Assembly: GCA_947258815.1 (NCBI GenBank)
Contig: CAMYJW010000030.1
Location: 682,001 to 746,000, forward strand
DNA length: 64,000 bases
Direction: 5' to 3'
Source of the DNA: an uncultured Sphingomonadaceae bacterium
Lineage (GTDB): Bacteria; Pseudomonadota; Alphaproteobacteria; Sphingomonadales; Sphingomonadaceae
The position numbers and the translations under genes were made by a program. The notes under the pieces were generated by a model that saw only the letters and a program-made list of their open reading frames with translations, made no database searches and was not told where the DNA came from. How positions within the stretch are numbered: the stretch's first letter is position 1; each line of letters begins with the position of its first letter. This document shows positions 20,476-60,428 of the stretch, piece by piece.

Positions 20476-21421
20476 CGAGCACGATCCTTGGTGTCAGCGA
20501 GCGTGAACAGCAGACCATGATCCGCTTGTTCTCCGCCCGCTTTTTGGGCCGAAGGAACGAATCGCGATGATCGGGAATGCCTTCGACAACTTTGGTGATG
20601 CAGGTTCCGCATGTCCCCTCGTTGCACGAACGCGGAATGACGACACCCACATCTTCAAGCGCCTCTGCGATCGACACATCGGGCGCGACTGTCACCACTT
20701 TGCCCGATTTGCGCAGTTCCACTTCGAAGCCGGTATCGCCGCCGGCAGCTGCCTCCTGCTCGCGCGGGTGGAACCGTTCTATCTGGAGCGAATCTTCGGG
20801 CCAGTCGCTGCAATGCGCCTCAACCGCCGTGATCAGCGCTTCGGGGCCGCAGCAATAGGCAACCGTGCGCACCTGATCCGTGCCCAGAAAACCGGCGATA
20901 TCGAGCAGGCCGCTTTCATCCTGCGGGCACACCACCACTTTATCGCCAAAGGTTCCCAGTTCCTCAAGGAAGGCCATGCTGGCGCGCGACCGACCGCCAT
21001 AAAGCAGCAGCCAGTCTTTTCCGCGCGCTTCCAGTTCGCGGACCATCGCCAGTATCGGCGTGATGCCGATGCCGCCTGCAATCATCAGGTAAAGATCGGC
21101 GTCCACCAGCGGGAAATTGTTACGCAGCGAAAGGACCGGCAATGTATCGCCAACGCCCACCGTGTCGTGCAGCATGGATGAGCCGCCCCGGCTTTGTTCT
21201 TCGCGCAGCACGGCAAAGCGCAGGCGGCGATGATCTTCGGGGTCTCCGCACAGCGAATACTGGCGATTAAGGCCTTCACCCAGCGCGATGTCGATATGCG
21301 CACCGGGCGTCCAGTGTGGGAAATCGGCGCCATCCACGCGTTCGAGCGAAAACGATTTCACGCCGCGCGCTTCTTCGTCAATCGCGCGGATCACAGTCTG
21401 AAATTCGGCCTGCATTGTCAT
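20468..21421 (-). CDS. PDR/VanB family ferredoxin reductase (FMN, NAD, 2Fe-2S)
   Basis: A 317-residue phthalate-dioxygenase-reductase-type protein. The N-terminal flavin domain has NRQYSLCGDP. The NAD domain has IAGGIGITPILAMVRELEARG and LLYGGRS. The C-terminal plant-type ferredoxin has CNEGTCGTC and a distal Cys in MVCCSRS. It passes electrons from NAD(P)H to an oxygenase. The Rieske oxygenase at 40668 and the two P450s lack neighbouring redox partners, so it may serve one or more of them. The ATG overlaps the stop of the small helical protein gene (ATGA). Confidence 0.93.
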   Translation of the reverse strand: MTMQAEFQTVIRAIDEEARGVKSFSLERVDGADFPHWTPGAHIDIALGEGLNRQYSLCGDPEDHRRLRFAVLREEQSRGGSSMLHDTVGVGDTLPVLSLRNNFPLVDADLYLMIAGGIGITPILAMVRELEARGKDWLLLYGGRSRASMAFLEELGTFGDKVVVCPQDESGLLDIAGFLGTDQVRTVAYCCGPEALITAVEAHCSDWPEDSLQIERFHPREQEAAAGGDTGFEVELRKSGKVVTVAPDVSIAEALEDVGVVIPRSCNEGTCGTCITKVVEGIPDHRDSFLRPKKRAENKRIMVCCSRSLTPRIVLDV

Positions 21422-21861
21422 TTCGGCCCCTCCTGACCGGGTGCCTTATCACCAATATAAACGGAATCGCGTTCCACCATGCGTTGGCGCAGAGCCTGCA
21501 ACTGGGCGCAGTCTGGCAGGTCGGCGACGATGGCGTGAAGCGCCAGATTGCGCGTGGCAGCAGCGCGCAATGCCACATCATTAAAACCACCGGGCGGCTC
21601 TGCCTGCACTTGCGAAAGGCGCGCTTCAAGCGATTGCTCGCCCTCTTGCGGCAGCAATTCGCCAAGCACGGCTTCGATATCGGCATTGTCCTGCGCAAGA
21701 TGCGCGCCCGCCAGATCCCAGCTGCGCTCCAGCCGCCCAAGCAGATGCAAGGCAGCTTTCAATTGCCGGGACGCCGCGCCGTCCGGCACTTCGGGCAGAA
21801 CAGTCTGCTTCAGGCTCTGGCGCAGGCCATGCAGCAGGTCGCCAGTGCTAGGCAGCAGCAT
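21418..21861 (-). CDS. Small helical protein, LvaB/DUF6285-like partner of the adjacent kinase
   Basis: About 147 residues, predicted mostly alpha-helical. The N-terminus (LPSTGDLLHGLRQSLKQTVLPEV) aligns by eye with the protein at 47690-48202 and with the first 70 residues of the fusion at 50841-52346. GGGAGA six bases before the ATG at 21861 sets the start, which overlaps the kinase end by 14 bases. In Pseudomonas levulinate catabolism a small protein (LvaB) works with the APH-type kinase LvaA. The resemblance here is positional and pattern-based, so family membership is likely but unverified. Confidence 0.65.
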   Translation of the reverse strand: MLLPSTGDLLHGLRQSLKQTVLPEVPDGAASRQLKAALHLLGRLERSWDLAGAHLAQDNADIEAVLGELLPQEGEQSLEARLSQVQAEPPGGFNDVALRAAATRNLALHAIVADLPDCAQLQALRQRMVERDSVYIGDKAPGQEGPK

Positions 21862-22900
21862 TGCTTGTCTCCCAGTCTTCCGCCGCGATCCATTCCAGCG
21901 CATTGCGCAGGCATTCGGGAACCTTGGCGGCCCGGTCTATATGGCGCAAGTTTGGCGTGCCGCCCGAAGCAAAGCTGTGCGATGCGGCAAGCGAGATAAC
22001 CGCAAACTTCACTTCGCTGAAAATGCGGTAATAGGCAAAATCCCGGCGCGGCACGGCAAACCCGGCATGCTGCGCGTGGATCGCCAGGAAATCATCGGCT
22101 GGCAGAAACTTCGCCGGGCTCCACAGCGCGCGATATATCCACGCGATATCTTCCGCCGGATCGCCGATGTGCGCCATTTCCCAATCGAGGATCGCCGATA
22201 CCTTGCCATCGAGATAGAGGAAATTGCCCGGCCGCATATCGCCATGCACGATCGACAGCCGCACCGGATCGGGCGCATGATCGCGCAGCCAGTCAAACAG
22301 CCATGCCAGAACCGGGTGTGGCTCAAGCCGGTGTTTGAAAAACTGATCATGCCAGTGTTCTATCTGCGCGCGAACCGGATCGCCATCCGGGCCGTGATCG
22401 GGTTGGGCAAACCCGCTGGATGTCCAGTCAAAACGGTGCAGTTCGCCAGCCGCTTTCGCCAGATCCTGTGAAAGCCCGCGCCCCGCATCATCGGCCATGG
22501 CCAGAAATTCGACCGCGCCTGCCTCACCGGCAACCCGCTCAAGAATGATAGCGGGCGATCCGGTGACCACACCTTCGCGATCTATCGCCAAGGCGCGCGG
22601 CGCACGCACATCCGATCCGTTGAGCGCGGCCAGCGCGCCAAATTCGGCATCGGGGTCGGCCTCGACATGGGTGACGGCAGCCTGGCTGAGAAGGATGCAG
22701 GGAAGCGTCCCCTGCTCCGCCGATATCGCATCGAAAGCCCACGCGCGCCGGGCATTGCCGCCAAAAATCTGCGACCAGCCTGACAATGTGACATCACCGC
22801 ACGAGGCAGCCAGCAGACCGACAACGGCGGACTGCATGCGCGCCGCCTCGTCCACAGACGCCCCAGACGCAGTTGACGCCCCAGACGCAGTTGACGCCAT
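21848..22900 (-). CDS. APH-fold phosphotransferase (LvaA/ACAD10-11 kinase-domain-like)
   Basis: A 350-residue kinase of the aminoglycoside phosphotransferase fold. The catalytic loop VHGDMRPGNF and the metal-binding ILDWEMAHIGDPAEDIAW are intact; a nucleotide loop is hard to see (SGWSQIFGGNARRAWAF). It sits among acyl-CoA enzymes, not resistance genes, and is followed by a small LvaB-like protein, so phosphorylation of a hydroxyacyl-CoA is the favoured role. The first 15 residues (ASTASGASTASGAS) come from two perfect 18-base tandem repeats at 22860-22895 and may not be functional. Confidence 0.85.
   Translation of the reverse strand: MASTASGASTASGASVDEAARMQSAVVGLLAASCGDVTLSGWSQIFGGNARRAWAFDAISAEQGTLPCILLSQAAVTHVEADPDAEFGALAALNGSDVRAPRALAIDREGVVTGSPAIILERVAGEAGAVEFLAMADDAGRGLSQDLAKAAGELHRFDWTSSGFAQPDHGPDGDPVRAQIEHWHDQFFKHRLEPHPVLAWLFDWLRDHAPDPVRLSIVHGDMRPGNFLYLDGKVSAILDWEMAHIGDPAEDIAWIYRALWSPAKFLPADDFLAIHAQHAGFAVPRRDFAYYRIFSEVKFAVISLAASHSFASGGTPNLRHIDRAAKVPECLRNALEWIAAEDWETSNAAA
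22860..22895. repeat. Perfect 2 x 18-base tandem repeat at the kinase 5' end
   Basis: The unit GCCCCAGACGCAGTTGAC occurs twice without a mismatch and encodes (TASGAS)2 at the very N-terminus of the kinase. Slippage could add or remove six residues without changing frame. Confidence 0.9.
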
Positions 22901-43700: not shown

Positions 43701-43723
43701 GCGCTATTCCCCCCGATGCAACG

Positions 43724-44455: not shown

Positions 44456-44479
44456 CTTGTCTCCCCCGCCACTTGTCGA

Positions 44480-46688: not shown

Positions 46689-47693
46689 TCAGGTATAGAT
46701 AATCCCGGTGCGCTCATCCCAGCGCCGACCGCGCAACCGCGCCATCATGTCCAGCGGGTTGTTTTCCATGTTGAGGCCATAGCCGATCCGGCCCTTGTCA
46801 GTGATCCACCGGCTCATCGCCACATAGAGCATCGTGCCGGTATAGCATGACCACGGCGCCCCCACGATCGGCGAGCCATACAAAACATGCCGGGTGCCGC
46901 GCACGTCAGTCGCCTCAACATCGATGGCAACCGCCACAGATCCCAGCCGATTGGTTTTCATCTGAAGATCGGTCAGCCCGAACAGCTCGCCATTTTCAAA
47001 CGCATAACCATGGGCAAGCGCTTCCTGCTGCCCTGCAGGCTTTGTGAAATCAAGGCTGTTGATCCAGTGCAGGCCATAATCCTCGCCGAAATTGGCGTTC
47101 ATCCAGCCCATGGATTTGAGCCCCACTTCGCAACGCTCACCCCAGCTGTGATCCATCGTCGAGACGCAATCGACCTTGTAGGTCCTGCCGCGCACCTTGA
47201 GCGTTCCGGTGACCTTGCACGTCAGATCGAAGTGGTTGCTATAAGCCTTGCCAAGGCCCGAACCTTCGGCGCGCGCCTGCTCATCCGCCTGCGCATGCGG
47301 GCTGTGGCGCGGATCGTGAATATCGAAAGGCTCGGTCAGGCCGACAACTTCCAGATGCGCTTCGGTATCGTCAAAGCCGATATAATCGAGATCATATCGT
47401 TCGGGGCTGTGGGCGTGGACTTTCAGGCCATTGGGCGTTTCAAAACGCGAAAGCCGATCCGGCGCGGGAAGCTGTTGCTGCGAATCATAGTAAAGCATTT
47501 CCCCGCGATTGTCCGACAGGCAACCGAAGATCGCGACATCGACAAGGCAGACCCCCACTGCCTTGCGCGTCACCGTATAAAACGTCGCAAGAATGCGTTC
47601 TTCGGGGATCATCACGATGAAATAGTTGGTCTCCGCAAAGGTGTAATCGATGCCTTCGGGGATGTGATATTCGATATCGTCCTGCGTGATCAT
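46689..47693 (-). CDS. DHSWG-type (CrtC/AttH-like, lipocalin-fold) protein, second copy
   Basis: A 334-residue soluble protein, beta-rich, with STMDHSWGERCEVG near residue 180 matching the DHSWG motif of the 320-residue protein at 49658-50620 and, more distantly, RDRHWG at 13916-15070. The start overlaps the small helical protein stop (ATGA), which in turn overlaps the kinase, so the three are one translational unit. The family includes CrtC hydratase-like and AttH-like proteins, but the reaction here is unknown. Confidence 0.65.
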   Translation of the reverse strand: MITQDDIEYHIPEGIDYTFAETNYFIVMIPEERILATFYTVTRKAVGVCLVDVAIFGCLSDNRGEMLYYDSQQQLPAPDRLSRFETPNGLKVHAHSPERYDLDYIGFDDTEAHLEVVGLTEPFDIHDPRHSPHAQADEQARAEGSGLGKAYSNHFDLTCKVTGTLKVRGRTYKVDCVSTMDHSWGERCEVGLKSMGWMNANFGEDYGLHWINSLDFTKPAGQQEALAHGYAFENGELFGLTDLQMKTNRLGSVAVAIDVEATDVRGTRHVLYGSPIVGAPWSCYTGTMLYVAMSRWITDKGRIGYGLNMENNPLDMMARLRGRRWDERTGIIYT

Positions 47694-48202
47694 GTGTTGT
47701 CGGCCTTGTTGAGAAGCTGTTTCAGATCGGTCACTTGCGATGGATCGGGTTCAAAGCCCATCGGGATGGCCCAGGCGCGCTGACGCTCTGTCATCGCGGG
47801 CTGCGCGGCCATGATTGCCGAAGCGATTTTGGCTTGCTGCGGAGTGCCGCGCGCGCCTTCAAGCAGGCCGGCAATGCGCGCCTTCACCGCGCGGACCTGC
47901 TGCTCAATATCTTGCGGACTGTTGCGCGAGGCTGCCAGCATATCTTCACTTGCACCGATCAGATCGCTGTCTGCCTGATCGCCCGTTGAGATGCTTTTGA
48001 GCAAATCCAGCGTATCGCCCAGATCGCAGCGCAGCGCCGCATGCAGATCGGGCAATCGCTGGCGCACGATGCCCAGCGTGGTAAGACACAGCTGAAGCTG
48101 CTCTATCGCCATGGCATCGCCGCTGGCCATCACCACCGGCAGAACATTATCGGCCAGCGATTTGCCAACCGCGCCAAGCTGAACGTCTGTTTCGGGTATC
48201 AT
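47690..48202 (-). CDS. Small helical protein, LvaB/DUF6285-like partner of the adjacent kinase, second copy
   Basis: About 170 residues. The N-terminus IPETDVQLGAVGKSLADNVLPVV lines up with LPSTGDLLHGLRQSLKQTVLPEV at 21418-21861 and with ITETGDYLKVALHTLETKIAPEM of the fusion at 50841-52346. The middle is helical and rich in Gln, Ala and Leu. The ATG at 48202 overlaps the kinase stop, ruling out a longer frame. It is likely an activator or structural partner of the kinase. Confidence 0.65.
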   Translation of the reverse strand: MIPETDVQLGAVGKSLADNVLPVVMASGDAMAIEQLQLCLTTLGIVRQRLPDLHAALRCDLGDTLDLLKSISTGDQADSDLIGASEDMLAASRNSPQDIEQQVRAVKARIAGLLEGARGTPQQAKIASAIMAAQPAMTERQRAWAIPMGFEPDPSQVTDLKQLLNKADNT

Positions 48203-49413
48203 GCCATCGCCTCCGTCAGTGCGTGATGCAGTTGCGCCGTCAACATGCCGCCGATGCCGTTCAGCCAGGTGAGCACGACATCCTGATGCGTCTTGCCGCC
48301 TTTCGCCGCGCGATACCCCGTCGCGATGCAAACAATCGCCGCGACCCATGCGTTATAGACCCGGTAATAGCGGATACGCGCCGGATCGATGCCAAGCCCG
48401 GTGGCGCGTTCATAAGCGGCATAGAATTCATTCAGCGGCAGCATCCCGTTGACCAGCAGCGTTTCGCCATCTTCGGCCATGTGCGCATATGCCAGCGAGG
48501 TTGCCCAGGTCAGATCCTGATGGCGATCACCGATCAGGCACAGTTCCCAGTCCAGCCATGCCGTAATCGCGCCGGAAGCTTCGTCGATCAGAAAGTTGCC
48601 GCTGCGACAATCGCCATGGATCACCGACAAATGATCAAGCGCGGGCGCATTGTCTTCAAGCCAGACCGCGGCAAGCTGCATCAGCGGCTCTTCCTCGCCG
48701 CGATCTTCCTCCCAGATCCGCCGCCACATCGCGACCTGCCTGCAAATCCCCGCGTTGCTGCCAACGGGCGGAACTTCAAACGATGGCAGCTCCATCGCCG
48801 CGATATCGGCATTATGCATCGCGGCCAGGCCATCCATAAACGACGCCGTGACAGCAGGGCGAAGGTCTGGCCCGTAATTGATACCCAGCCCGGTGACTTG
48901 CGCGGAAGCATCGCTGGCGGGCTTCACCACCCCTTGCGCGCGGCTGAAAATCAGGGCCGGATAAGGGAACACCTGCGCATCTTCATCTTCCCAGTAACAA
49001 ACCGGAACAGGCAACGTGGGCGCAAGCGCGCGGATCATTTCAAACTCACGCCGACGCGATGTCTCGACAATCGATTCCGCAGGGCTCATGCGCAGGATCA
49101 TCGGGCTTTCATGCAGCGGCGCGGAGCCATCGATCCCATGCCATTCCAGATCGAAACTGAGCTGGAGCTTCGATGAGCCGCCCGTCATCCAGTGCAGCGA
49201 TTTGATCGTGAACGGCTTGTCCAGCCGGTCAGACAGAAAGCGCGAAAGATGGTCCGCCATTTCATCGAGCGGAACACGCCGATAGGGATCGCCCGCGCGC
49301 TGCTCCATCTTGCGAGTCAGCACACGATCAATTTCCGGCTCCACTGCAAAACGCGAGCGAAGATCGGCAATAAATTCGCGCGAAGGCAACTGGCGAGAAT
49401 CACCCAGGGTCAT
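48199..49413 (-). CDS. APH-fold phosphotransferase, second copy
   Basis: About 404 residues. The kinase core shows LHWMTGGSSKLQLSFDLEW (nucleotide loop), VIHGDCRSGNFLID (catalytic loop) and AWLDWELCLIGDRHQDLTW (metal site). An N-terminal extension of about 55 residues (LPSREFIADLRSRFAVEPEIDRVLTRKMEQR) precedes it. AGGAGAG five bases before the ATG at 49413 sets the start. It is followed by a LvaB-like and a DHSWG protein with four-base overlaps. By analogy to LvaA or ACAD11 it may phosphorylate a hydroxyacyl-CoA. Confidence 0.85.
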   Translation of the reverse strand: MTLGDSRQLPSREFIADLRSRFAVEPEIDRVLTRKMEQRAGDPYRRVPLDEMADHLSRFLSDRLDKPFTIKSLHWMTGGSSKLQLSFDLEWHGIDGSAPLHESPMILRMSPAESIVETSRRREFEMIRALAPTLPVPVCYWEDEDAQVFPYPALIFSRAQGVVKPASDASAQVTGLGINYGPDLRPAVTASFMDGLAAMHNADIAAMELPSFEVPPVGSNAGICRQVAMWRRIWEEDRGEEEPLMQLAAVWLEDNAPALDHLSVIHGDCRSGNFLIDEASGAITAWLDWELCLIGDRHQDLTWATSLAYAHMAEDGETLLVNGMLPLNEFYAAYERATGLGIDPARIRYYRVYNAWVAAIVCIATGYRAAKGGKTHQDVVLTWLNGIGGMLTAQLHHALTEAMA

Positions 49414-49657
49414 CAAACTCTCCTGTTTTATAGGCCGCCAGCGTTCTGATCGGGCCGGTAACACACGCTAATTCAATTGGGATTCAAAGCAATAGAACCT
49501 TCGGTTTTTGTGGCAAAGCATGATATCGTTGCGCCGTCCTCCGGTAGCCCGATATCGCGAAACCGAAGATCGTTCAAAATGCGGTTGCCATATACGCACT
49601 GGATGGATAACTACTTTACCAATTAAAAAATGCACAACAAAAAAGTGAGAGAGCGGG
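49414..49657. promoter_or_regulatory. Divergent regulatory region with nested inverted repeat
   Basis: This gap separates the kinase operon (minus) from the DHSWG gene (plus). It has a long-range nested palindrome: outer 9-base arms CTTCGGTTT / AAACCGAAG at 49499-49507 and 49560-49568, inner 7-base arms GATATCG / CGATATC at 49522-49528 and 49550-49556. The plus-strand side (about 49600-49650) is AT-rich and may hold the DHSWG promoter. Confidence 0.5.
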
Positions 49658-50620
49658 ATGTTTGACAACAGTGTTTGGGCCGAAGCAGGTATGGAAATAG
49701 ACGCCGTCAACGATGGCCGTCACCAGCTTCCGGATTCACCGATGGCGCGCGAATCGATTCCCTATATCGTCGTCTTGCCCGAACATCAGATCGCCTTCTT
49801 CACTTATACCTGGGTCAACAAGGAAAGCGTCGCCGGCGCGGCCTTCGCCGTGTTCGGCCCCGGCGTGGGCGATACCCCGATCCAGCAGCGCCTGGCCGAT
49901 CGTCCGGTGCCCGCGGACATGAATTTTGACGCTTGGGAAATCGATGGTTTCCGCATGGAACAGGATCTTGCCTTCAACAAGGCGCGGGTGCGCTGGGAAA
50001 CGCCCGAAGCCGCCGTCGATTTCGAATTTGAAGCCTATCACCCACCATATTCCTACGGTTCCGACCCACGCGGCTGTCCGTCTTATTGCGCAACCGATCG
50101 CATCGAACAGGCAGGACGCGCCAAAGGCTCGCTTAAACTTGGCGAAAAGGTTATCGAATTTGATACCACCAGCCACCGCGATCACAGCTGGGGCACGCGC
50201 GACTGGGTGCCTTTCCAGCAATACGAATGGTTTGTCGGTCAGGTGGGGGACGAAATCGCCGTGCATTTCTGGCGCTTCAATGCGCTGGGCAAGGAAAACA
50301 TCCGCGGCTATGTTTACAAAGACGGCACAATGTCGCGCATCGTCACCATTGATAACGATGTGACGTATGGCGATCAGTTCTGGCAGGAAGCCTACAAGGC
50401 CCGGCTGACCGATGAAGCCGGGCGCGAAACGCTGATCGAAGGCGATGTGTTCGGTTGTTATACGCTGCTTCCCGATCCCAACTGCAGCCTCAACGAAAGC
50501 GGCGCGAAGGCCACTTTCGACGACAAGACCGGGATTGGCTGGATGGAATGCTGCTGGCCGACCGACTATCTCGATCACATTCGTTCGGTTCCCCGCTATG
50601 TGGCGGAATCACAGGGCTGA
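49658..50620 (+). CDS. DHSWG-type (CrtC/AttH-like, lipocalin-fold) protein, third copy
   Basis: A 320-residue soluble protein with TTSHRDHSWGTRDW near residue 180 and IPYIVVLPEHQIAFFTYTWVNKESVAGAAFAVFGP, which echoes YFIVMIPEERILATFYTVTRKAVGVCLVDVAIFG in the copy at 46689-47693. The two are clear paralogues. It is divergent from the kinase/helical/DHSWG operon and lies upstream of the kinase fusion gene on its own strand. It may have a substrate pocket between two lipocalin-like barrels; its role is not known. Confidence 0.65.
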   Translation: MFDNSVWAEAGMEIDAVNDGRHQLPDSPMARESIPYIVVLPEHQIAFFTYTWVNKESVAGAAFAVFGPGVGDTPIQQRLADRPVPADMNFDAWEIDGFRMEQDLAFNKARVRWETPEAAVDFEFEAYHPPYSYGSDPRGCPSYCATDRIEQAGRAKGSLKLGEKVIEFDTTSHRDHSWGTRDWVPFQQYEWFVGQVGDEIAVHFWRFNALGKENIRGYVYKDGTMSRIVTIDNDVTYGDQFWQEAYKARLTDEAGRETLIEGDVFGCYTLLPDPNCSLNESGAKATFDDKTGIGWMECCWPTDYLDHIRSVPRYVAESQG

Positions 50621-50840
50621 TCCACTCAGATCGGCTTGCGCCGGATAACGGCACGGTCGGTTCGTGGCGCAATCGAACAGTAACCGGGCAATAGCGGGAC
50701 AGACGCTCGAACGCGCAGTCCGCAAGCGTTTGCGCACCGCGCAGCCGGCCGCTGAACAGCGTCTGGATCGCGCCGCGATTTGCACCGTGTGACAGCCCAA
50801 TGGCGGCTGGTATAAGACGGCTTGGGAGACAGGATCGAAC

Positions 50841-52346
50841 ATGAAAATCACCGAAACCGGCGACTATCTGAAAGTCGCGCTGCACACTCTGGAAACCAAG
50901 ATTGCGCCGGAAATGTCGTCAAGCGACGGACAGGCCGCTGCCGGCATCCTGATGCGCGTGCTGGCTGAACTTTCGCGCCGCGAACAGGTATCTGCGCCCG
51001 CGCTGCTGGCAAGCAATGCGGTTGGGCAAAAATTGCTGGAACGCCTTGGCCGGTTTGCCAGCGACAACGCCATCGCAATGCCTGATGACGCCGCAGCCAA
51101 CACGGATACGGGCGAAGACTTTTCGGCGCAGGCGCAAGTCCACGAGGCACTGTCCGCGCAACTGGCGCGCGTCTGCACCACGCTGAGCGACCAGCGCAAA
51201 ACACTTGCCGGGCCGGCGCAAAACGATGAACTGAGCGGGCTGTTGCTGGAAGTGGGCCAATGGGACGAAGCGTTCGTTGCCGCGCAGCGCACGATCGCCC
51301 TGCCCGAAACGCCGCCCCCGCCCGCGCCAAAAGGAGAACCGCTCAATCAGGCGTTGCTGCAAGCGTTCCTGCGCTCGGTCCATCCCGACGGGGACACGCT
51401 TACTGTTACCCAGTTCAAGGCAATTCCGGGCGGTTTTGGCAAACAAACGTCGCGCGCGACATACACCGATGCCGCCGGAACGGAGCATGAGGTGATCGTG
51501 CGCAAGTCCGATCCGGTGCCGATGGCGCTGAAAGGCGCGTTCGTGATCGACAACGAGTTTTACCTGCTGCGCGATGTTTACAAATCCAGCGATCTGCCGC
51601 TTCCCGAACCTCTGTGGCTGGCGAAGGACTTTCCTGGCGTCGATGCAGATTTCTATGTGATGTCGCCCCTGCCCGGCGCGGTGCCCAGCTCATTCCTTGG
51701 CGCGGCGGACGCGACGATTCCCGAACCGATCATCCTTGAAATGGCCGAACTGATGGCGCGGCTGCACAAGCTGGAACTGCCCGCGATCGGCGACTATCTG
51801 GCCGCGCATGACAATCCGGCGGTTCTGAACGAAACCGTCGAAGGCTGCTATCGCCGTCTGATTGCCGAGTGGAAGGCCTATTACGCGCAGAACGATCATC
51901 TGCCTTCGCCCTTCGTGGTCTATCTGCTTGACTGGCTGGATCAGAACGTGCCCGCCAATGCGCAAAACCCGGTGCTGGTCCATGGCGATTTCAATGTGCA
52001 CAACGTGCTGGTCGACGATGGCAGGATCACCGGCGTTCTCGATTGGGAATGCGCCACGATAGGCGCGCCCGAACAGGATCTGGCCTATGTTCGCCCGATC
52101 ATGTCGCAACATATAGACTGGGATCGCTTCATCGATCACTATGAAGCTTCGGGTGGCAGAACAATCGACCGTGAAGGCCTCAATTTCTATATGGCTTTTG
52201 CCGCGATGCGCCTGTGCGTGATCTTCAACAAGGGTGTGCGCAACCTGCAGCAAGGCATCAACAACGATATCCGCTATGGCATCATCGATCTTGATCTGAC
52301 GCCCGAATTCATGACTCAGGCGCTGGCCTGTACCACCGCGAAGTAG
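50841..52346 (+). CDS. Fusion of LvaB-like helical domain and APH-fold kinase
   Basis: A 501-residue protein. Residues 1-150 are helical and resemble the separate small proteins at 21418 and 47690 (ITETGDYLKVALHTLETKIAPEM). Then come a Pro-rich linker (ETPPPPAPKGEP) and a kinase domain with FKAIPGGFGKQTSRATY (nucleotide loop), VHGDFNVHNVLVDDG (catalytic loop) and VLDWECATIGAPEQDLAY (metal site). The fusion shows that the two separately encoded proteins elsewhere in the window are functional partners. GGGAGACAGGA precedes the ATG. The TetR gene follows 29 bases later. Confidence 0.8.
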   Translation: MKITETGDYLKVALHTLETKIAPEMSSSDGQAAAGILMRVLAELSRREQVSAPALLASNAVGQKLLERLGRFASDNAIAMPDDAAANTDTGEDFSAQAQVHEALSAQLARVCTTLSDQRKTLAGPAQNDELSGLLLEVGQWDEAFVAAQRTIALPETPPPPAPKGEPLNQALLQAFLRSVHPDGDTLTVTQFKAIPGGFGKQTSRATYTDAAGTEHEVIVRKSDPVPMALKGAFVIDNEFYLLRDVYKSSDLPLPEPLWLAKDFPGVDADFYVMSPLPGAVPSSFLGAADATIPEPIILEMAELMARLHKLELPAIGDYLAAHDNPAVLNETVEGCYRRLIAEWKAYYAQNDHLPSPFVVYLLDWLDQNVPANAQNPVLVHGDFNVHNVLVDDGRITGVLDWECATIGAPEQDLAYVRPIMSQHIDWDRFIDHYEASGGRTIDREGLNFYMAFAAMRLCVIFNKGVRNLQQGINNDIRYGIIDLDLTPEFMTQALACTTAK

Positions 52347-52375
52347 AGCCGCCACACCAGAAACGAACGCACGCC

Positions 52376-53044
52376 ATGGCCACGCCACCCCCGGCAAAAC
52401 TCCGCCCTTCCACTGAAGAAACCCGCATCAGGATAATGCTGGCGGCGGAGCGGCTTTTTGGCGAACAGGGCATTGAATCGGTCGCCTTGCGCGCGATCTG
52501 CACTGCTGCAAAGCAGCGCAACACGTTCAGCGTGCAATATCATTTTGGTGACCGGATCGGCCTGTTGCAGGCTATTTTCGAGTATCGCGAGGCCCAGCTT
52601 GACGCGATGCGCGAAGCGCTGCTTCTGCAAGGGCGAGAGCATGATCATCTGGGCGATATCCGCTGGCTGCTGCGCGCCTGTTTCTATCCCAACTTCCGCC
52701 ATTTCATTGAAAACGACGGACTGCCCTACATCCGCCTGCACTTTCAGTATCTCGCCAACCTGCGCCCGCGCGGGATTCTGCATCCGGTCGATTATCCCTC
52801 GCCTTGCTCGGTGCACCTGCGCGAAGTTGTGCGGCGCATGAAGCGCAAGCTCAGTTTCCTGACCGGCGAACAATTCGACATGCGGCTTGAAGCGGTCGGC
52901 TCCATGTTTCTGGGCGCGATCATGCAGCATGCCGCGCGGCCGCCGGAAGCGGCGGTTCACTACCCGACACTGTTTGAAAACCTGCTGGAAATGATGGCCG
53001 CAGCGATGACCGTGCCACCCTGGGATTTTTCGCAAGAGGACTGA
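52376..53044 (+). CDS. TetR family transcriptional regulator
   Basis: A 222-residue regulator. Its N-terminus is rich in charged residues and carries the helix-turn-helix ERLFGEQGIESVALRAICTAAKQRNTFSVQYHFGDRIGLLQAIFEYR; the recognition part QRNTFSVQYHF is typical of TetR proteins with a C-terminal AefR-like domain. It follows the kinase fusion and precedes the P450, so it may control one or both. No operator candidate was identified for it. Confidence 0.92.
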   Translation: MATPPPAKLRPSTEETRIRIMLAAERLFGEQGIESVALRAICTAAKQRNTFSVQYHFGDRIGLLQAIFEYREAQLDAMREALLLQGREHDHLGDIRWLLRACFYPNFRHFIENDGLPYIRLHFQYLANLRPRGILHPVDYPSPCSVHLREVVRRMKRKLSFLTGEQFDMRLEAVGSMFLGAIMQHAARPPEAAVHYPTLFENLLEMMAAAMTVPPWDFSQED

Positions 53045-53187
53045 TAATCAAACGCGCGTTTTATAATTATGCGCCCAGCCCCCGTTTTTCCGGTTGAACC
53101 ATGCTATAATTCGAATACCCTGTATCGCATGATTTAAAATCTGATTGCAGCGTAATGTGCGATCAGGGCATTGCCGGGGAGAGATAA
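53045..53187 (+). promoter_or_regulatory. Promoter region of the CYP101-like P450 operon
   Basis: The 143-base gap between TetR and P450 is markedly AT-richer than the flanking genes. Two exact TATAAT hexamers occur at 53062-53067 and 53105-53110; neither has a strong -35 box at ideal spacing. A GGGGAGAG ribosome-binding site sits just before the ATG at 53188. Confidence 0.5.
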
Positions 53188-54435
53188 ATGGAAAGTGCGG
53201 CCGATCCGCAAGACGGCGTGACGATCGCCACGCTGGCGCCACGACCAGACCATGTGCCTGCGGACCGTGTGATCGATTTCAATCTTCATCAGCCGGTGCC
53301 CGACGGCAAATCGGTGCATGAATTCTGGCGGGAGCTCATCGCCGACGCGACGCACGATATCATGTGGACACCGCATAACGGCGGCCACTGGATCTGCGTC
53401 GATCCCGATCTGTGCGAAACGGTGCTGGAGGATTCCGTGCGCTTTTCATCGCGCGTTGTCATCGTGCCGCGCGATCCGATTGGCGAAACTTACGCAAATT
53501 TTATCCCGCTCTCGCTCGATCCGCCGGTCCACGGCCCCTATCGCAAAGTGCTGAACGATAACCTTGGCCCCAAGCAGATCGCGCGGATCAAGGATGCGGT
53601 GCGCGATCTCACGGTCGAGCTGATCGAAGGGTTCCACAGCGCAGGCCGCTGCAATTTCGTCCACGATTTTGCCGAACAGTTGCCGGTGCGCATTTTCATG
53701 CGGCTGGTCGCCCTTCCTGAAGAGGATCTGCCCAAGCTTAAATACCTTGCCGATCAGTTCACCCGGCCGGACGGGACGATTGAATTTCCCGAAGTCGAAG
53801 CCAATTTCCGCAACTATATCGGCCCGATCATCGATGCCCGGCGCGGCGGCTCTGGCGACGATCTGATCACCCGCATGGTCAGCGCCGAAGTCAACGGACA
53901 ACCGCTGAGCGATGCCGATGCGCAAAACCTGTGCATTCAAACGCTGGTTGGCGGCCTCGATACGGTGGTGAACCTGCTGGCGTTCGTATTTTCGTTCCTT
54001 GCGATCAACCCAGATCAACGGCGGATTCTGGCATCCGATCCCGCGAAAATAGATGAAGCGATGAACGAGTTTTTGCGCCGTTTCCCGGTGGTTTCGGACT
54101 CGCGCGAAGTGCGCCACGATCTGGATTTCGGCGGCGTTACCATGAAGCACCGCGATATGGTGATGGCTTCAACCGTGCCGATCGCGATGAGCGAGAAAAG
54201 CAACGTCGATGCTCTGGACTTTCAGATAGATCGCAAGGCGCGGCGGCATTCGATCTTCGGGCGCGGCGCGCACACCTGCCCCGGCGCGCACCTTGGCCGG
54301 CTTGAGCTGAAAGCGGTGCTCAGCGAATGGCTGGCGCGCATCCCCGATTTTCGTCTGCCCGAAGGCGAAAGCCTGACCTACACCAGCGGGATCGTTGCCA
54401 CGGTCGACCCGTTCAATCTGGAATGGGATGTCTGA
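53188..54435 (+). CDS. Cytochrome P450, CYP101 (P450cam)-like
   Basis: A 415-residue P450. LVGGLDTVVNLLAF in the I-helix, EFLRRFPVVSDSREV at the ExxR site, FGRGAHTCPGAHLGRLEL at the heme Cys, and the ending EWLARIPDFRLPEG with YTSGIVATVDPFNLEWDV all follow the pattern of camphor hydroxylase (CYP101A1) and its sphingomonad relatives, which hydroxylate monoterpenoids and ionones. No ferredoxin gene is adjacent. It starts a plus-strand run with SnoaL-like and LLM genes. Confidence 0.94.
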   Translation: MESAADPQDGVTIATLAPRPDHVPADRVIDFNLHQPVPDGKSVHEFWRELIADATHDIMWTPHNGGHWICVDPDLCETVLEDSVRFSSRVVIVPRDPIGETYANFIPLSLDPPVHGPYRKVLNDNLGPKQIARIKDAVRDLTVELIEGFHSAGRCNFVHDFAEQLPVRIFMRLVALPEEDLPKLKYLADQFTRPDGTIEFPEVEANFRNYIGPIIDARRGGSGDDLITRMVSAEVNGQPLSDADAQNLCIQTLVGGLDTVVNLLAFVFSFLAINPDQRRILASDPAKIDEAMNEFLRRFPVVSDSREVRHDLDFGGVTMKHRDMVMASTVPIAMSEKSNVDALDFQIDRKARRHSIFGRGAHTCPGAHLGRLELKAVLSEWLARIPDFRLPEGESLTYTSGIVATVDPFNLEWDV

Positions 54436-54501
54436 CCGCGGTCAACTGAAAAACACGATTTCCGGCGCATCGAACGCCCGGAACAACAAGAGGAAATGCC
54501 A

Positions 54502-54879
54502 ATGGCAAACCCGGCAGAATTGTCCGATCAACTGATTGCCGCATACAACAATCAGGATTTCGACGCGATGGCGGCGATGATGGCGCCAGACATCGATTTC
54601 AACCATTTCAACCGCGATTTTGCGATGAACGATCGCGACCAGCTGATCGACACATTGCGCACTTTTGCCGCGCAGTATTTCGTCGAGCGATGCTTTGAGC
54701 CCCCGGAAAAAGTGATCACCGATGGCAACACGGTCGTGCGCGTGGCCTGGTATACAGGCGTGCCCAAAGTCGATCTGCCGGGCTTTGGAGATGCCGGCGA
54801 AACCTTCCGCCTCAACCTGTGCAGCGTGATGCGCTTCAACGATGCGGGCATTCTGGTCGAATGGAAAGACTTCGGCTGA
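54502..54879 (+). CDS. SnoaL/NTF2-like fold protein
   Basis: About 125 residues with the pattern LSDQLIAAYNNQDFDAMAAMMAPDIDFNHFNRDF at the start and closing strand LCSVMRFNDAGILVEWKDFG, typical of the SnoaL-like cystatin-fold group that includes ketosteroid isomerase and epoxide hydrolases. AAGAGGAA six bases before the ATG at 54502 supports that start over the one two codons earlier. Lying between P450 and LLM genes it may isomerise or hydrolyse an oxidised intermediate. Confidence 0.85.
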   Translation: MANPAELSDQLIAAYNNQDFDAMAAMMAPDIDFNHFNRDFAMNDRDQLIDTLRTFAAQYFVERCFEPPEKVITDGNTVVRVAWYTGVPKVDLPGFGDAGETFRLNLCSVMRFNDAGILVEWKDFG

Positions 54880-54920
54880 TCAGGCCAGCATTACGGCAAC
54901 AATTTCAAAAGGATCACGAC

Positions 54921-55988
54921 ATGAAAGTCGGCATGTTTCAAACGCCGTTCAACCGGCCAGAGCGCGATGCAACGACGGTGTTTGACTGGGCGATCCGGCA
55001 GGCGGTGGTGGCCGATGAGGTCGGGTTCACCGAAATGTGGGTTGGGGAGCACCTGACGCTGGACTGGGAAGGCATCCCCTGCCCCGAACTGGTGATCGCA
55101 GGCGCGGCGCGGCTGACCAAAAACATAAAGTTCGGCCCGCTTGCCCATCTGTTACCCTATCACCATCCCGGCACGCTTGCGATCCAGACAGCGTGGCTCA
55201 GCCAGATCCTGAAGGGCCGCTATATGCTGGGCGTGGCCGCTGGCGCCTATCCCACCGACGCGGCGCTTGCCGGGCTTGAAGACACGTCAACCAATCATGC
55301 CCGGATGTTCGAATCGATCGAGATGATGCAGAAAGTCTGGGATGCGCAGCCGTTTCGGCAGGAAGGCGAATTCTGGGACGCGGGCTATCCCGATCCAACC
55401 GCACCTGGCGCACATATGCGCGACACCCGGCCCTATGGCGGAGAAATGCCAATGGCGATGACCGGGCTTAGTGCGCCATCGCCTTCGATCAACTTTGCTG
55501 CAGAGCGCGGCTGGATTCCCGCCTCGGTCTATGCCGGCAACCGTTTCCTGCGCACCCAGTTTGACGATTATGCGCGTATTTCCGCCGAAAACGGATTCAC
55601 GCGCGACCGATCAATCCACCGTGTTGTGCGCGATGTCGTGGTGGCCGAAACCGATGCCGCCGCGCGCGAACTGGCCATCGAGGGCGGGCTTGGCCGGGCA
55701 TGGAAAGAATATCTCCAGCCGACCTATGAACGGTTTGGCATCATGGAAGAACTGATGCCCGACAAGTCCGTCGATCCCGGCTCGATCGATGGCGAATATC
55801 TGGCGGACAATGTCTGGATCGTGGGATCGCCTTCAACCGTGATCGAAAAGTTCGAACAATGGTTTGGCGAACTGGGCGGCGCTTTCGGCACGTTGCTGAT
55901 CTATAGCCATGATTTCATCGACAATCCCAAACCATGGGAAGAATCGATGCGGCTTCTGGCGCAGGAAGTTGCGCCCAAGCTTCCATAA
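54921..55988 (+). CDS. LLM class flavin-dependent oxidoreductase
   Basis: About 355 residues with luciferase-type barrel motifs: ADEVGFTEMWVGEHLTLDW, IKFGPLAHLLPYHHPGTLAIQTAWL, GRYMLGVAAGAYPTDAAL and GSPSTVIEKFEQWFGELGGAFGTLL. Similar to the limonene/terpenoid-type and other FMNH2-dependent monooxygenases annotated as alkanal monooxygenase-like. AAGGA precedes the ATG at 54921. A second LLM protein in the window lies at 4920-6005. It follows the SnoaL-like gene by 41 bases. Confidence 0.92.
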   Translation: MKVGMFQTPFNRPERDATTVFDWAIRQAVVADEVGFTEMWVGEHLTLDWEGIPCPELVIAGAARLTKNIKFGPLAHLLPYHHPGTLAIQTAWLSQILKGRYMLGVAAGAYPTDAALAGLEDTSTNHARMFESIEMMQKVWDAQPFRQEGEFWDAGYPDPTAPGAHMRDTRPYGGEMPMAMTGLSAPSPSINFAAERGWIPASVYAGNRFLRTQFDDYARISAENGFTRDRSIHRVVRDVVVAETDAAARELAIEGGLGRAWKEYLQPTYERFGIMEELMPDKSVDPGSIDGEYLADNVWIVGSPSTVIEKFEQWFGELGGAFGTLLIYSHDFIDNPKPWEESMRLLAQEVAPKLP

Positions 55989-56026
55989 GTGCCTCCGCAC
56001 CAGGCCGCAGCGCATCATTGAGAGAC

Positions 56027-56047
56027 TTTTTCCACGATACCGTTGAC
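56027..56047 (+). promoter_or_regulatory. Shared promoter motif TTTCCAC-N6-GTTGAC, copy 1
   Basis: The element before the MaoC-like operon is identical at 20 of 21 bases to 60611-60631 and shares TTTCCAC-N6-GTTGAC with 60429-60447 on the minus strand. The TTGAC end looks like a -35 box. It starts about 100 bases upstream of the first start codon. Confidence 0.6.
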
Positions 56048-56127
56048 GCCATTTCCCTTCCCGTGCCACAAGCTGTCAAAATGGCGCAGCGCTGATAGGT
56101 TGTGCGCACGATTGGGAGAGAGGGCGA

Positions 56128-56574
56128 ATGACAGACAACGGCGATCTGGACCTTGGAAGTCTGCGGATCACACCGGAAACGCCGGTGGGGTATGAATTGC
56201 ATCCGATCAAGAAAAAGGCAGCGATCCAGCTTATGGGAAGCAGGGTCTGGGGCCGCTTCAATCCCAATCACTGGGATCCCGATTATGCCCAGTCAACCGG
56301 GCTGACCGATCCGATCCAGACGGGCGAAATGTCATCGGCGTATATCTCGGAAATGTGCGTCAATCATTTCGGCGCCGCGATGTTCAGGAATGCGCGGATC
56401 GTGTGCAAATACATCGCTTCGACCATCGCTGGCGAAGTGATCGTCACCGGCGGAGTGATCACCGAAAAGACCCCGAAGGGCAACGGTTTTCGTTTCAAGG
56501 CCGATATCTGGTCCGCCAACGAAGCGGGCGATAAGAAAACGGTCGGCTGGGTCGAAGCGGATGTGGGAGTTTAA
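56128..56574 (+). CDS. MaoC-like hotdog-fold protein (ChsH1-like candidate)
   Basis: A 148-residue hotdog protein with FNPNHWDPDYAQSTGLTDPIQTGEMSSAYISEMCVNHFG, a variant of the MaoC hydratase segment in which the catalytic His region is N-H-W-D. It starts directly after GGGAGAGAGGG. Together with the second hotdog protein, DUF35 protein and thiolase-like gene that follow in two-to-eleven-base steps, it resembles the steroid ChsH1-ChsH2-Ltp2 hydratase-aldolase complex. Either of the two hotdog proteins may be the catalytic one. Confidence 0.82.
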   Translation: MTDNGDLDLGSLRITPETPVGYELHPIKKKAAIQLMGSRVWGRFNPNHWDPDYAQSTGLTDPIQTGEMSSAYISEMCVNHFGAAMFRNARIVCKYIASTIAGEVIVTGGVITEKTPKGNGFRFKADIWSANEAGDKKTVGWVEADVGV

Positions 56575-56577
56575 TCG

Positions 56578-57096
56578 ATGAGCAATGATCTCAAGCCGCA
56601 AACACCGGTTCAGGCGGCGCAGACTCGCGCCTTTGTCAAAAGCCTTGAACAGGAATCGCAGACGTACTGGGATATGGTGGAAATCGGCGACGAACTGTCG
56701 CGCGATCTGCACATTACGCCTGAACTGGTGATCCTCTATCTGGACCCGGTTGAAGATTATAACCCGTGGTATGAAGGCTGGCGCATGAACAGCTGGCATA
56801 TCGACGGGGAATCGCCGTTCGGCGGGGCTATCGTGCCCCCGCTGCTGGTTTCTCACTTCGTGCTTTCAGTCCAGTTTGACCATACAAAGCCGTTCGCCAT
56901 CGGATCGATCCACACTTTCCACGATTCCGAAATCCTTGAGCCGATCCCGATCGGGGCGACCGTGCGCATCACCACCCGCGCGATCGACAAGTATGAAAAG
57001 CGCGGGCGGCGCTATGTGCGTCATGAAGTGCATGTGACCGATGTCGCCAATGACACGCTCTATTTCCGCGAAGTACGCGATATTCTCTCGCTTTAA
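56578..57096 (+). CDS. MaoC-like hotdog-fold protein (ChsH2 N-domain-like candidate)
   Basis: A 172-residue protein with a hotdog pattern: YWDMVEIGDELSRDLHITPELVILYLDPVEDYNPWYEG, GGAIVPPLLVSHFVLSVQFD and the double psi of GATVRITTRAIDKYEKRGRRYVRHEVHVTD. The family histidine is not obvious. Starting three bases after the first hotdog gene, it probably forms a heteromer with it, as ChsH1 and ChsH2 do. In actinobacteria ChsH2 carries a DUF35 domain in the same chain; here that domain is the next gene. Confidence 0.78.
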   Translation: MSNDLKPQTPVQAAQTRAFVKSLEQESQTYWDMVEIGDELSRDLHITPELVILYLDPVEDYNPWYEGWRMNSWHIDGESPFGGAIVPPLLVSHFVLSVQFDHTKPFAIGSIHTFHDSEILEPIPIGATVRITTRAIDKYEKRGRRYVRHEVHVTDVANDTLYFREVRDILSL

Positions 57097-57107
57097 GGAG
57101 CCGGTTC

Positions 57108-57560
57108 ATGGGCCACGAAGTGCCGGAATTTGTCGTCGATGGACTTGTCGAGCAGACGCCCGAGGGGCCGCGCCTGATCGGAACGCGCTGCGCGGGCTGC
57201 AACACGCTTTATTTTCCGCAAAAATCCAGTTGTGCGAATCCGGGTTGCGATGAAAAATCCCCGCAACCCGCGCATCTTCCGGCGGCCGGCACGCTCTACA
57301 GCTATACGATCCAGCGCTATCAGCCGCCTTCGCTGTTTCGGATCGATGACTGGCAGCCCTATATCATCGGCCTTGTCGAGCTGGGCGAAGGCGTGCGCGT
57401 GATGGCCATGCTGACGGGAATCGAAGAGGATCAGCTGCGCATCGGCATGGACCTGCAACTCGTTACCCAACCGCTCTATACCGATAGCGAAAAGGGCGAG
57501 GTTCGCACGTTCAAGTTCGCACCAACAGGCAAGTTCGCACCAGCAGGAGAAAGCGCATGA
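57108..57560 (+). CDS. DUF35 zinc-ribbon/OB-fold protein
   Basis: A 150-residue protein. The zinc ribbon has CAGC near residue 29-32 and CANPGC near residue 42-47 and is followed by an OB-fold (LYSYTIQRYQPPSLFRIDDWQPYIIGLVELGEGVRVMAMLTG). The C-terminus ends in a duplicated KFAPTG/KFAPAG from an 18-base tandem repeat at 57513-57548. The stop overlaps the thiolase-like start (ATGA), making a tight pair, as the DUF35 domain and aldolase partner in Ltp2/ChsH2. Confidence 0.9.
   Translation: MGHEVPEFVVDGLVEQTPEGPRLIGTRCAGCNTLYFPQKSSCANPGCDEKSPQPAHLPAAGTLYSYTIQRYQPPSLFRIDDWQPYIIGLVELGEGVRVMAMLTGIEEDQLRIGMDLQLVTQPLYTDSEKGEVRTFKFAPTGKFAPAGESA
57513..57548. repeat. Imperfect 2 x 18-base tandem repeat at the end of the DUF35 gene
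   Basis: Two adjacent units beginning AAGTTCGCACCA match at 16 of 18 bases and encode KFAPTG and KFAPAG at the C-terminus. It looks like a recent local duplication. Confidence 0.85.
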
Positions 57561-58747
57561 GGCCGGTCTATGCGCTGGGCGCAGGCGCGCACCCGTGGGG
57601 CAAATGGCCAGACAAACCGCAAGTGCAGCTTGCCAGCGAGGCAATGGATGAAGCGCTTGCCGATGCCGGGTTGCGCTGGTCCGATGTGCAGGGACTGGCT
57701 GCCGCGTCGTCGCGCTTTGAAGGCGGCATGGGCTGGGGCCTGCACGCCAATGAACTGGTGCAGACCGTGGCCGAACAGGGCATTCCATGCATCAATGTCG
57801 GCGGTGCCTGCGCGGCTGGCGCGATCGCCCTGCAAACCGCCTATGCGCTTGTTTCAAGCGGGCAATATGATGTTGTCGCTGCGGTTGGCGCGGAACGCAT
57901 GCCCAAGGGGTTCATCCCCCGCCCGCCCGGCAGCGCGGATGACCGGACCGACGACGATTATCTTCGCTGGGTTACGATGGGCGCAACCAATCCTGCATAC
58001 TGGGCGATAGAGGCCCGCCGCCGCCAGCACGATCATGGCACCAGCGATCAGACACTGGCCAGGGCCTCCACGCTGATGCGCCGCAATGCCAGCGGCAATC
58101 GCCGCGCGCGCTATCGCGATCCGATCAGCGAAGACGATGTCCTCGCCTCGCCGATGGTCGCAGACCCGCTGCATCTGCTTCAGATTTGCCCGGTCAGCGA
58201 TGGTGCCTCGGCTGTCATTCTGGGAAGCGAGGATTTTGTCGCGCGGTCGGGAAAACCGGGCGTGCGCGTGGCCGGGTGTGCAATCGGTTCAGGCCAGTTC
58301 GGCGATCCGGCCCGCCGCATCCCCACCATCGCCAGCACCGTGCGCGACGACGTTTCGCACACCAGCGAGGTGACGGGCGCAGTGAGCAGGGCTTTTGAGA
58401 TGGCGGGTGTCGGCCCGGAAGACATCGACCTGCTGGAAATGGCCGATAACACCGCATGGCATCTGCTGGCATGGCCCGAACTGTTCGGCTTTTATGAGCC
58501 GGGCAAGGGAGACTGGATGCTGGAGCAAGGCAAGCTGTCTATCGACGGCGATCTGGCGCTGAATCCCAGCGGTGGCTTTCTCTCATTCGGCGAAGCAACC
58601 ACCGCGCAGGCACTGTTACAGGTCAGCGAAGTGCTGTGGCAATTGCGCGGGCAGGCAGAAGGTCATCAGGTGCCCGATGCAAAAGTGGGGATGACCGCCG
58701 TTCTTGGTCTTGGCGCAAACGGTGGATCCGTGATCCTCACTCGATAA
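57557..58747 (+). CDS. Thiolase-fold protein with altered active site (Ltp2-like aldolase candidate)
   Basis: A 396-residue thiolase-superfamily protein. A Cys is present in INVGGACAAGAIAL, but the usual GHxxGATG motif reads LSFGEATTAQ, so the catalytic His is replaced by Glu. Such changes fit loss of thiolytic activity and use as a retro-aldolase. Tight coupling to the DUF35 gene and two hotdog proteins supports a hydratase-aldolase complex acting on a branched side-chain or ring intermediate. A non-catalytic lipid-carrier role cannot be excluded. Confidence 0.85.
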   Translation: MRPVYALGAGAHPWGKWPDKPQVQLASEAMDEALADAGLRWSDVQGLAAASSRFEGGMGWGLHANELVQTVAEQGIPCINVGGACAAGAIALQTAYALVSSGQYDVVAAVGAERMPKGFIPRPPGSADDRTDDDYLRWVTMGATNPAYWAIEARRRQHDHGTSDQTLARASTLMRRNASGNRRARYRDPISEDDVLASPMVADPLHLLQICPVSDGASAVILGSEDFVARSGKPGVRVAGCAIGSGQFGDPARRIPTIASTVRDDVSHTSEVTGAVSRAFEMAGVGPEDIDLLEMADNTAWHLLAWPELFGFYEPGKGDWMLEQGKLSIDGDLALNPSGGFLSFGEATTAQALLQVSEVLWQLRGQAEGHQVPDAKVGMTAVLGLGANGGSVILTR

Positions 58748-60384: not shown

Positions 60385-60428
60385 ATCTTCTCCCATTTGG
60401 TATCGAATTGTCACAGCGGTTCGCGAAC

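Follow-up and report, generated by a model that had tools for sequence, protein, structure and literature searches.

Genes at the locus

We analysed a window of 64,000 nucleotides from an uncultured Sphingomonadaceae bacterium. On its forward strand, an ORF at 50841-52346 starts with ATG and encodes 501 amino acids, divided between an N-terminal helical domain, a Pro-rich linker and a full APH-type kinase domain (Table 1). This architecture was put forward in an earlier note on this DNA and is confirmed by the translation, the Pfam APH match and the kinase motifs. The ORF is the second of ten forward-strand genes spanning 49658-58747, in which it follows a lyase-like gene and precedes eight others. 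Among the latter, the TetR-like and MaoC-like proteins match Pfam below the cut-off (21.7 bits for a cut-off of 24 and 25.4 bits for a cut-off of 27, respectively), and the product of 56578-57096 has no match in the PDB. The ChsH2-type and thiolase-like proteins have the Ltp2 and ChsH2-DUF35 chains of 6ok1 among their PDB matches (3.2e-26, 2.4e-12), and these chains are outscored by the thiolase/DUF35 complex 6esq. Judged from its predicted products, the gene run fits the breakdown of a hydrophobic compound.

The window also encodes two modules in which kinase and helical partner are separate proteins. In the second of these, the bases ATGA at 48199-48202 combine the stop codon of the kinase with the start codon of the partner, and another ATGA at 47690-47693 joins the partner in the same way to the DUF7065/DUF7064 gene. 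Together with the fusion, these overlapping codons suggest a fixed stoichiometry, and they argue for the functional pairing of kinase and small protein that had been claimed from the fusion.

The window as a whole looks like a catabolic island, with P450, thiolases, SDRs, an acyl-CoA dehydrogenase family (ACAD) protein at 37362-38522 and, by eye, acyl-CoA ligases. Flavin-binding monooxygenase-like proteins are encoded at 58765-60414 (Pfam) and 24798-26444 (by eye). Two regions, 26818-28302 and 43116-44533 (reverse strand), apparently hold two copies of one gene pair: a COX3-like gene (Pfam COX3 for 43116-43700, by eye in the other copy) and a gene whose product resembles a membrane protein, has about 270 residues and matches no Pfam family (43724-44533).

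Table 1. Features of the fusion ORF, its neighbours and the split modules of the window
Feature	Position	Strand	Basis
N-terminal helical partner domain of the fusion (residues 1-146)	50841..51278	+	hhalign against the 21.4-kb partner family, P 7.5e-7; modelled helices
Pro-rich linker LPETPPPPAPKG (residues 154-165)	51300..51335	+	translation; pLDDT <50 at 151-158
APH-type kinase domain of the fusion (residues 166-501)	51336..52343	+	Pfam APH; HGDFNVHN and LDWE; PDB sequence and fold matches
DUF7064-type protein encoded just before the fusion; putative lyase for phosphate elimination	49658..50620	+	Pfam DUF7064 2.5e-24; DHSWGTR motif
Genes after the fusion: TetR-like, P450, SnoaL-like, luciferase-like monooxygenase, MaoC-like, 56578-57096, ChsH2-type OB/zinc ribbon, thiolase-like	52376..58747	+	Pfam
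Split kinase, first module	21848..22900	-	Pfam APH 7e-28; HGDMRPGN, LDWE
Stand-alone helical partner, first module (21.4-kb protein)	21418..21861	-	family alignment; start M of MLLPSTGDLL overlaps kinase end
Split kinase, second module	48199..49464	-	Pfam APH 4.1e-22; H clade of the kinase tree
Stand-alone helical partner, second module (47.7-kb protein)	47690..48202	-	sequence; family alignment; hhalign against the 21.4-kb family
DUF7065/DUF7064 protein, second module	46689..47693	-	Pfam DUF7065 1.7e-10, DUF7064 2.5e-8

The kinase domain

The Pfam family APH (PF01636) covers residues 192-446 of the fusion with an E-value of 1.6e-30 and 107 bits, for a cut-off of 23.2. APH kinases carry a catalytic HxDxxxxN signature and a metal-binding DWE, and both are intact here, as HGDFNVHN and LDWE. 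Among sequences in the PDB, the nearest to the kinase is ACAD11 (2.1e-18), then come 9o56 and 3dxp (7.3e-17), and further matches are the 25-hydroxysteroid kinase (25-HSK) entry 9fsg (2.7e-11) and then 3ats. When the model of the whole fusion was searched against the PDB by fold, the list was filled by kinases. It is led by Rv3168 (3ats; Z 21.1, rmsd 3.8, 312 residues aligned), and continues with 3dxp (Z 19.6), two entries of 25-HSK (9ft5, Z 19.2, rmsd 4.1, 321 residues aligned; 9fsg, Z 18.8), homoserine kinase (Z 18.4) and choline kinases (18.1 and below), where Z values less than 1 apart count as ties. Foldseek placed 3dxp first and 25-HSK (9fsg) second (1.2e-9). Since 25-HSK is tied by fold with homoserine kinase and lies near the choline kinases, the kinase domain does not single out a steroid. 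From its sequence and predicted fold it belongs to the kinases of small-molecule alcohols, and no single substrate is indicated.

Homology of the N-terminal domain with the stand-alone partners

Residues 1-158 of the fusion have no match to any Pfam or NCBIfam family. Pairwise BLASTP proved too insensitive as a test of likeness to the small proteins: in single comparisons, the N-terminal domain gave E 0.010 with the 21.4-kb protein and no alignment with the 47.7-kb protein, and the two small proteins matched each other at E 0.003. Hence, we grew the three partner families from related genomes and compared the resulting alignments (9 sequences for the N-terminal domain, 17 for the 21.4-kb family and 26 for the 47.7-kb family) with hhalign. 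The N-terminal domain matches the 21.4-kb family with a probability of 91.8% (P 7.5e-7) over 134 collinear columns, positions 1-135 on 1-135, and the 21.4-kb family matches the 47.7-kb family with 96.1% (P 3.2e-9). The direct match between N-terminal domain and 47.7-kb family is weak (4.0%, P 0.01); against a merged alignment of both small families the domain reaches 67.6% (P 5e-5). The likeness to the 21.4-kb family became convincing only once the families were enlarged; an earlier round with small alignments had given just 12.6%.

Two sets of controls put these values in perspective. Column-reversed alignments never exceeded 0.7% in the main round, 0.9% with the small alignments and 0.8% with the merged alignment. 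Alignments of 24 unrelated proteins from the same loci, compared with four profiles each (96 comparisons), gave at most 1.1% and P values of at least 0.05; in this set some kinds recur (ligases, SDRs, P450s and thiolases among others) and few are helical, and helical composition is better controlled by the column reversal.

The AlphaFold2 models are compatible with this likeness, at low confidence for the partner. The N-terminal domain is predicted to form helices at 7-24, 28-75, 96-117 and 125-146, and the 47.7-kb protein at 5-27, 30-49, 51-57, 61-73, 96-117 and 121-145, in a weak model built from three sequences. The main helices of the domain correspond in their order and length to those of the partner model, which has pLDDT 59.5 and in which the extra helices at 81-91 and 160-167 lie in stretches mostly below pLDDT 50. 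Searching the PDB with the partner profiles returned no sequence match below E 0.08, and the best PDB fold match of the 47.7-kb model (6q09, hemerythrin-like, Z 8.9) was set aside as being at chance level for helical bundles. Taken together, the profile comparisons support homology between the N-terminal domain of the fusion and the small helical partners. The earlier note had seen this resemblance to both small proteins in residues 1-150, and profile comparison now makes it clear for the 21.4-kb family (P 7.5e-7) and indirect for the 47.7-kb one.

Partner types, kinase clades and the origin of the fusions

The earlier note counted three versions of the system, two split and one fused, but the genome holds at least nine modules, eight split and one fused. 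We mapped 15 kinase ORFs in it (another count of kinase matches gave 16): eight with a separate partner, one fused and six lone. Outside the window lie six more kinase-partner pairs (loci L142, L143, L144 and L146, with two pairs in L145), four of them next to a DUF7064-type gene, although one match, in L145, is weak (E 5e-6). Close orthologues of the fusion occur in a Caenibius MAG (L085, the same ORF as in genome G130), an Altererythrobacter MAG (L086), Novosphingobium colocasiae (L087) and genome G148, which has two. In L086, two successive kinase-partner pairs are followed by the fusion, and a DUF7064-type gene bounds the row on each side. The profile of the N-terminal domain finds matches better than 1e-15 in four of the 298 genomes of the family (this genome, G148, G130 and G153), and the N-terminal fusion is thus rare.

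We built a tree from 58 kinase ORFs of the window, L086, L087 and L142-L181, which also served for the neighbour counts; L085 was omitted from both as the same ORF as L158. The eight N-fused kinases form a clade of their own (support 100/97). Sixteen kinases fused at their C-terminus to DUF6285, a small domain discussed below, form another (98/97), within a DUF6285 clade of 20 (100/99). The 18 kinases with a separate partner of the 47.7-kb type, hereafter H-type, fall in a third clade (100/99) that includes one lone kinase. The 21.4-kb kinase has a long branch, and the deep branching among the groups is without resolution. Partner type hence tracks kinase clade. These clades indicate two separate fusions, one N-terminal and one C-terminal, so that the partner probably became attached to the kinase twice, once at each end. 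As the fusion kinase falls in the separate N-fused clade, the fusion does not seem to have arisen from either split pair in the window.

Some kinases depart from these types. Four of the eight lone kinases lack HxDxxxxN, all of them among the six lone ones of this genome; these four are doubtful and may not be APH enzymes. One of the 18 H-type kinases (L156, 8511-10013, reverse strand) also lacks the motif, in spite of its partner and DUF7064 neighbour, and is possibly inactive. Two kinases of L160 (4170-5747 and 12386-13933) carry a different N-terminal extension and are together sister to the N-fused kinases (99/95). Other N-extended APH kinases are the second ORF of L002 and those of L003, L004, L005, L006 and L008. 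Against the N-terminal domain alone, such extensions reach 1.4% in hhalign (P 0.036), and 12.2% (P 0.0024) in the comparison of the merged round, which is no more than suggestive of a relationship. In L009, an APH kinase (940-2322) is extended at the C-terminus by about 110 residues, in which DUF6285 and the remaining partner profiles find no match.

A distantly related domain in DUF6285 kinases

DUF6285 (PF19802) was considered as the direct family of the N-terminal domain and rejected: up to an E-value of 10 it matches neither residues 1-158 nor the 47.7-kb or 21.4-kb protein, no protein of this genome scores over its cut-off, and hhalign gives nothing between it and the N-terminal domain. 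The 21.4-kb family does match it, with 63.8% (P 6.7e-5) in an alignment that begins near the start of the DUF6285 domain, and the 21.4-kb profile finds DUF6285 proteins in two of 20 fetched loci (E 3e-7 and 2e-5 in a search of 4253 ORFs, in which such loci are over-represented). By these profile matches, the partner superfamily is distantly related to DUF6285, via the 21.4-kb family only. LvaB, the small protein of levulinate degraders to which we return below, may itself be a DUF6285 protein.

DUF6285 exceeds its cut-off in 30 of the 147 genomes of the order. Among 30 fetched loci, it is C-terminal in a kinase-matching ORF in 26, and in the other four it has a small ORF to itself, next to that of an APH kinase. 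One ACAD subfamily lies within 1 kb of 16 of the 20 DUF6285-type kinases (L162-L181) and of none of the 28 kinases that are N-fused or have a partner of the H or 21.4-kb type (Fisher test 2e-9, a value that is too small since the rows are related). These ACADs were rejected as orthologues of LvaC or ACAD11: one member scores 77 bits with ACAD11 and 130 with the best ordinary ACAD. DUF6285 kinase, partner and ACAD neighbour look like a second, parallel module of kinase, partner and acyl-CoA enzyme. We found no paper mentioning DUF6285 in the open-access literature searched.

A phosphosteroid lyase relative beside the kinases

The gene directly upstream of the fusion escaped the earlier note, and it points to the chemistry of the module. 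Its product (49658-50620) matches DUF7064 (Table 1), and DUF7065 with 24.3 bits, below the cut-off of 27. The single sequence found no relative in the PDB, but a profile of 16 DUF7064 proteins, all matched by PF23212 and PF23213 (E up to 1), found 25-phosphosteroid lyase (9fzn/9g2i, E 4.9e-7; 9g4c, 1.8e-5; values for the whole protein). The best single stretch of the match to 9fzn covers profile positions 17-204 (25.0 bits, 8.2e-5), and the next PDB match, AttH, lies at 0.091. The aspartate of a D-x-SWG-x-R motif is invariant in all 16 proteins and, from a comparison of two printed alignments, corresponds to an asparagine in entry 9g4c; it would be catalytic. By profile similarity, then, the neighbour of the fusion is a relative of 25-phosphosteroid lyase (25-PSL). 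In the open-access literature searched, we found no paper with DUF7064 or DUF7065, and two with phosphosteroid lyase, 25-PSL or 25-HSK.

A DUF7064-type protein is encoded within 500 bp of 15 of the 28 kinases with an H-type, 21.4-kb-type or N-fused partner, against none of the 20 DUF6285-type and none of the eight lone kinases (Fisher tests 6e-5 and 0.011, both too small since rows are related). The other 13 of the 28, including three of the eight N-fused kinases, lack such a neighbour. These counts come from loci picked by kinase or partner and not by DUF7064, with the 20 DUF6285 loci taken at 12 kb each. The protein 49658-50620 was counted both for the fusion and for the kinase 48199-49464, which has a second DUF7064 neighbour; two N-extended kinases (neither with a DUF7064 neighbour) were placed in neither compared class, and L154, a partner without detected kinase, was left out. 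Elsewhere in the window, a DUF7065-like protein (13916-15070, reverse strand; 17.0 bits for a cut-off of 27) has no adjoining kinase, and its gene overlaps by 4 bases the end of 15067-16311 (reverse strand), which is P450-like by eye.

A probable ATP-dependent dehydration module

The fused kinase adjoins a relative of an enzyme that removes phosphate, so that the set probably uses ATP to dehydrate alcohols. We consider it likely that kinase, helical partner and phosphate-eliminating lyase form an ATP-dependent alcohol-dehydration module, of which this ORF carries the one-chain form of a two-protein kinase. The basis is domain homology, gene adjacency, a partner type that tracks both kinase clade and neighbour type, an intact kinase motif and a conserved lyase motif; from these we infer the catalysis, the substrate, the docking interface and the exact role of the partner. 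The N-terminal domain would be the covalent version of a small, translationally coupled kinase subunit, in the way that LvaB serves LvaA. The kinase would probably phosphorylate the hydroxyl of a hydrophobic intermediate, steroid- or terpenoid-like and possibly CoA-linked, perhaps produced by the P450 of the same gene run. The DUF7064-type protein would then eliminate the phosphate and leave an alkene, the net reaction being an ATP-dependent dehydration, and the alkene might be passed on for hydration and cleavage to the MaoC-like, ChsH2-OB and thiolase-like proteins encoded further along the run.

Most likely, the partner sits on the kinase and aids substrate binding or hand-over to the lyase, and not phosphoryl transfer itself. 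This is suggested by 25-HSK, the N-terminal part of ACAD10 and a Burkholderia LvaA orthologue, all active according to reports that mention no such partner in the passages drawn on here. 25-HSK of Sterolibacterium denitrificans, heterologously expressed, phosphorylates 25-hydroxysteroids (PMC8449060). ACAD10, ACAD11 and LvaA phosphorylate 4-hydroxyacyl-CoA, after which the phosphate is eliminated (PMC12440821, PMC11342911). The N-terminal part of ACAD10 (residues 1-608) is active (PMC11342911), and a Burkholderia LvaA orthologue replaces the kinase part of ACAD10 in vitro, LvaB being absent from the main text (PMC12440821, PMC11342911). In the passages of PMC6692424 drawn on, P. citronellolis encodes a homologue of LvaA in a cluster that lacks lvaB, and a partner is perhaps not always needed.

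The helical domain might instead be a regulator or a scaffold, serving in ligand sensing or oligomerisation and not as a substrate-side subunit. The activity of 25-HSK and of ACAD10 1-608 speaks for this, as does the existence of lone kinases, some of them doubtful. Yet, deletion of lvaB abolishes growth on levulinate, according to the part of PMC6692424 drawn on, which is more than one expects of a mere regulator, and the fixed stoichiometry suggested by the fusion and the overlapping codons also tells against it. We find such a regulatory or scaffolding role unlikely, and it would be compatible with the dehydration module. A different alternative bears on the chemistry. The kinase might act on 4-hydroxyacyl-CoA, like LvaA and ACAD10/11, with an ACAD-type enzyme from elsewhere taking the next step and the DUF7064 neighbours doing another job. 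LvaA/LvaB is the sole partnered APH system with biochemistry that we found in the open-access literature searched, as far as the passages used show, ACAD11 is the best PDB sequence match of the kinase, an ACAD subfamily accompanies most DUF6285-type kinases, and the window itself holds an ACAD and, by eye, acyl-CoA ligases. But that subfamily is found beside none of the 28 kinases of the other partnered types, 15 of which have the lyase-like protein, and the DUF7064 profile finds 25-phosphosteroid lyase well ahead of AttH. We judge this alternative unlikely.

It is most improbable that residues 1-146 are an unrelated helical extension whose likeness to the partners arises from composition and coil propensity. 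The BLASTP blank with the 47.7-kb protein and the weak direct match to its family could be read in this way, but the collinear match to the 21.4-kb family, the near-zero scores of the reversed and unrelated controls and the predicted helices running in step all oppose it. It is hardly credible that the ORF encodes a resistance kinase for aminoglycosides or macrolides, extended at its N-terminus: APH(3') and Mph models are among the weak NCBIfam matches, but the best scores 40.1 of 205 bits, far below the cut-off, and the setting is catabolic with nine paralogous modules.

If the dehydration module is real, small proteins that went unrecognised beside APH-type kinases become parts of one testable biochemical module, which is a place to study the role of LvaB-like partners, and its fused form offers a single-chain construct for seeing how partner meets kinase. 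It also provides neighbouring kinase and lyase genes for a type of dehydration already described in levulinate degradation and in the anaerobic degradation of cholesterol. One might speculate further that the helical-partner superfamily (N-terminal domain, 47.7-kb and 21.4-kb families, DUF6285, and LvaB if it belongs) defines a general, modular ATP-dependent dehydration: one type of partnered kinase, two interchangeable lyases (of the ACAD family for the DUF6285 type, 25-PSL-like for the rest), separate fusions at opposite ends, and at least nine modules for different alcohols in one genome, their kinase and lyase genes often adjacent, unlike those of the cholesterol degrader from which the steroid kinase is known. 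We advance this generalisation tentatively, as a possibility that falls somewhat short of probable.

Comparison with known systems

The kinase and the lyase parts have known members, and in the open-access literature searched we found neither a 25-PSL-like lyase combined with a kinase and its partner nor a description of two opposite fusions of a partner to a kinase. The APH-DUF6285 kinases are alike in joining a kinase and a small partner, often in one chain. They differ in that the domain is C-terminal and shorter, and in their neighbours (DUF7064 0/20, ACAD subfamily 16/20). In the passages of PMC6692424 drawn on, the 4-hydroxyvaleryl-CoA kinase of Pseudomonas putida likewise consists of an APH-type kinase, LvaA, and a small protein, LvaB, that binds it in a pulldown, both being needed for growth. 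But LvaB is a separate protein of 12 kDa, whereas the partner here has about 146-170 residues and is fused N-terminally in this ORF, and the next step is taken there by LvaC, of the ACAD family, whereas here the neighbour is 25-PSL-like. Mammalian ACAD10 and ACAD11 also combine a kinase domain with subsequent phosphate elimination in one chain (PMC12440821 and PMC11342911, from the passages used); their kinase is fused to the phosphate-eliminating ACAD domain and not to a helical partner. 25-HSK and 25-phosphosteroid lyase resemble the present system in the kinase fold and in a lyase related to the DUF7064-type neighbour. In the passages of PMC8449060 drawn on, no partner of 25-HSK is mentioned, the C-O lyase that follows it was unidentified in 2021, and no candidate lay near the 25-HSK gene. 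Here, unlike there, the genes for kinase, partner and lyase-like protein adjoin, in several copies per genome.
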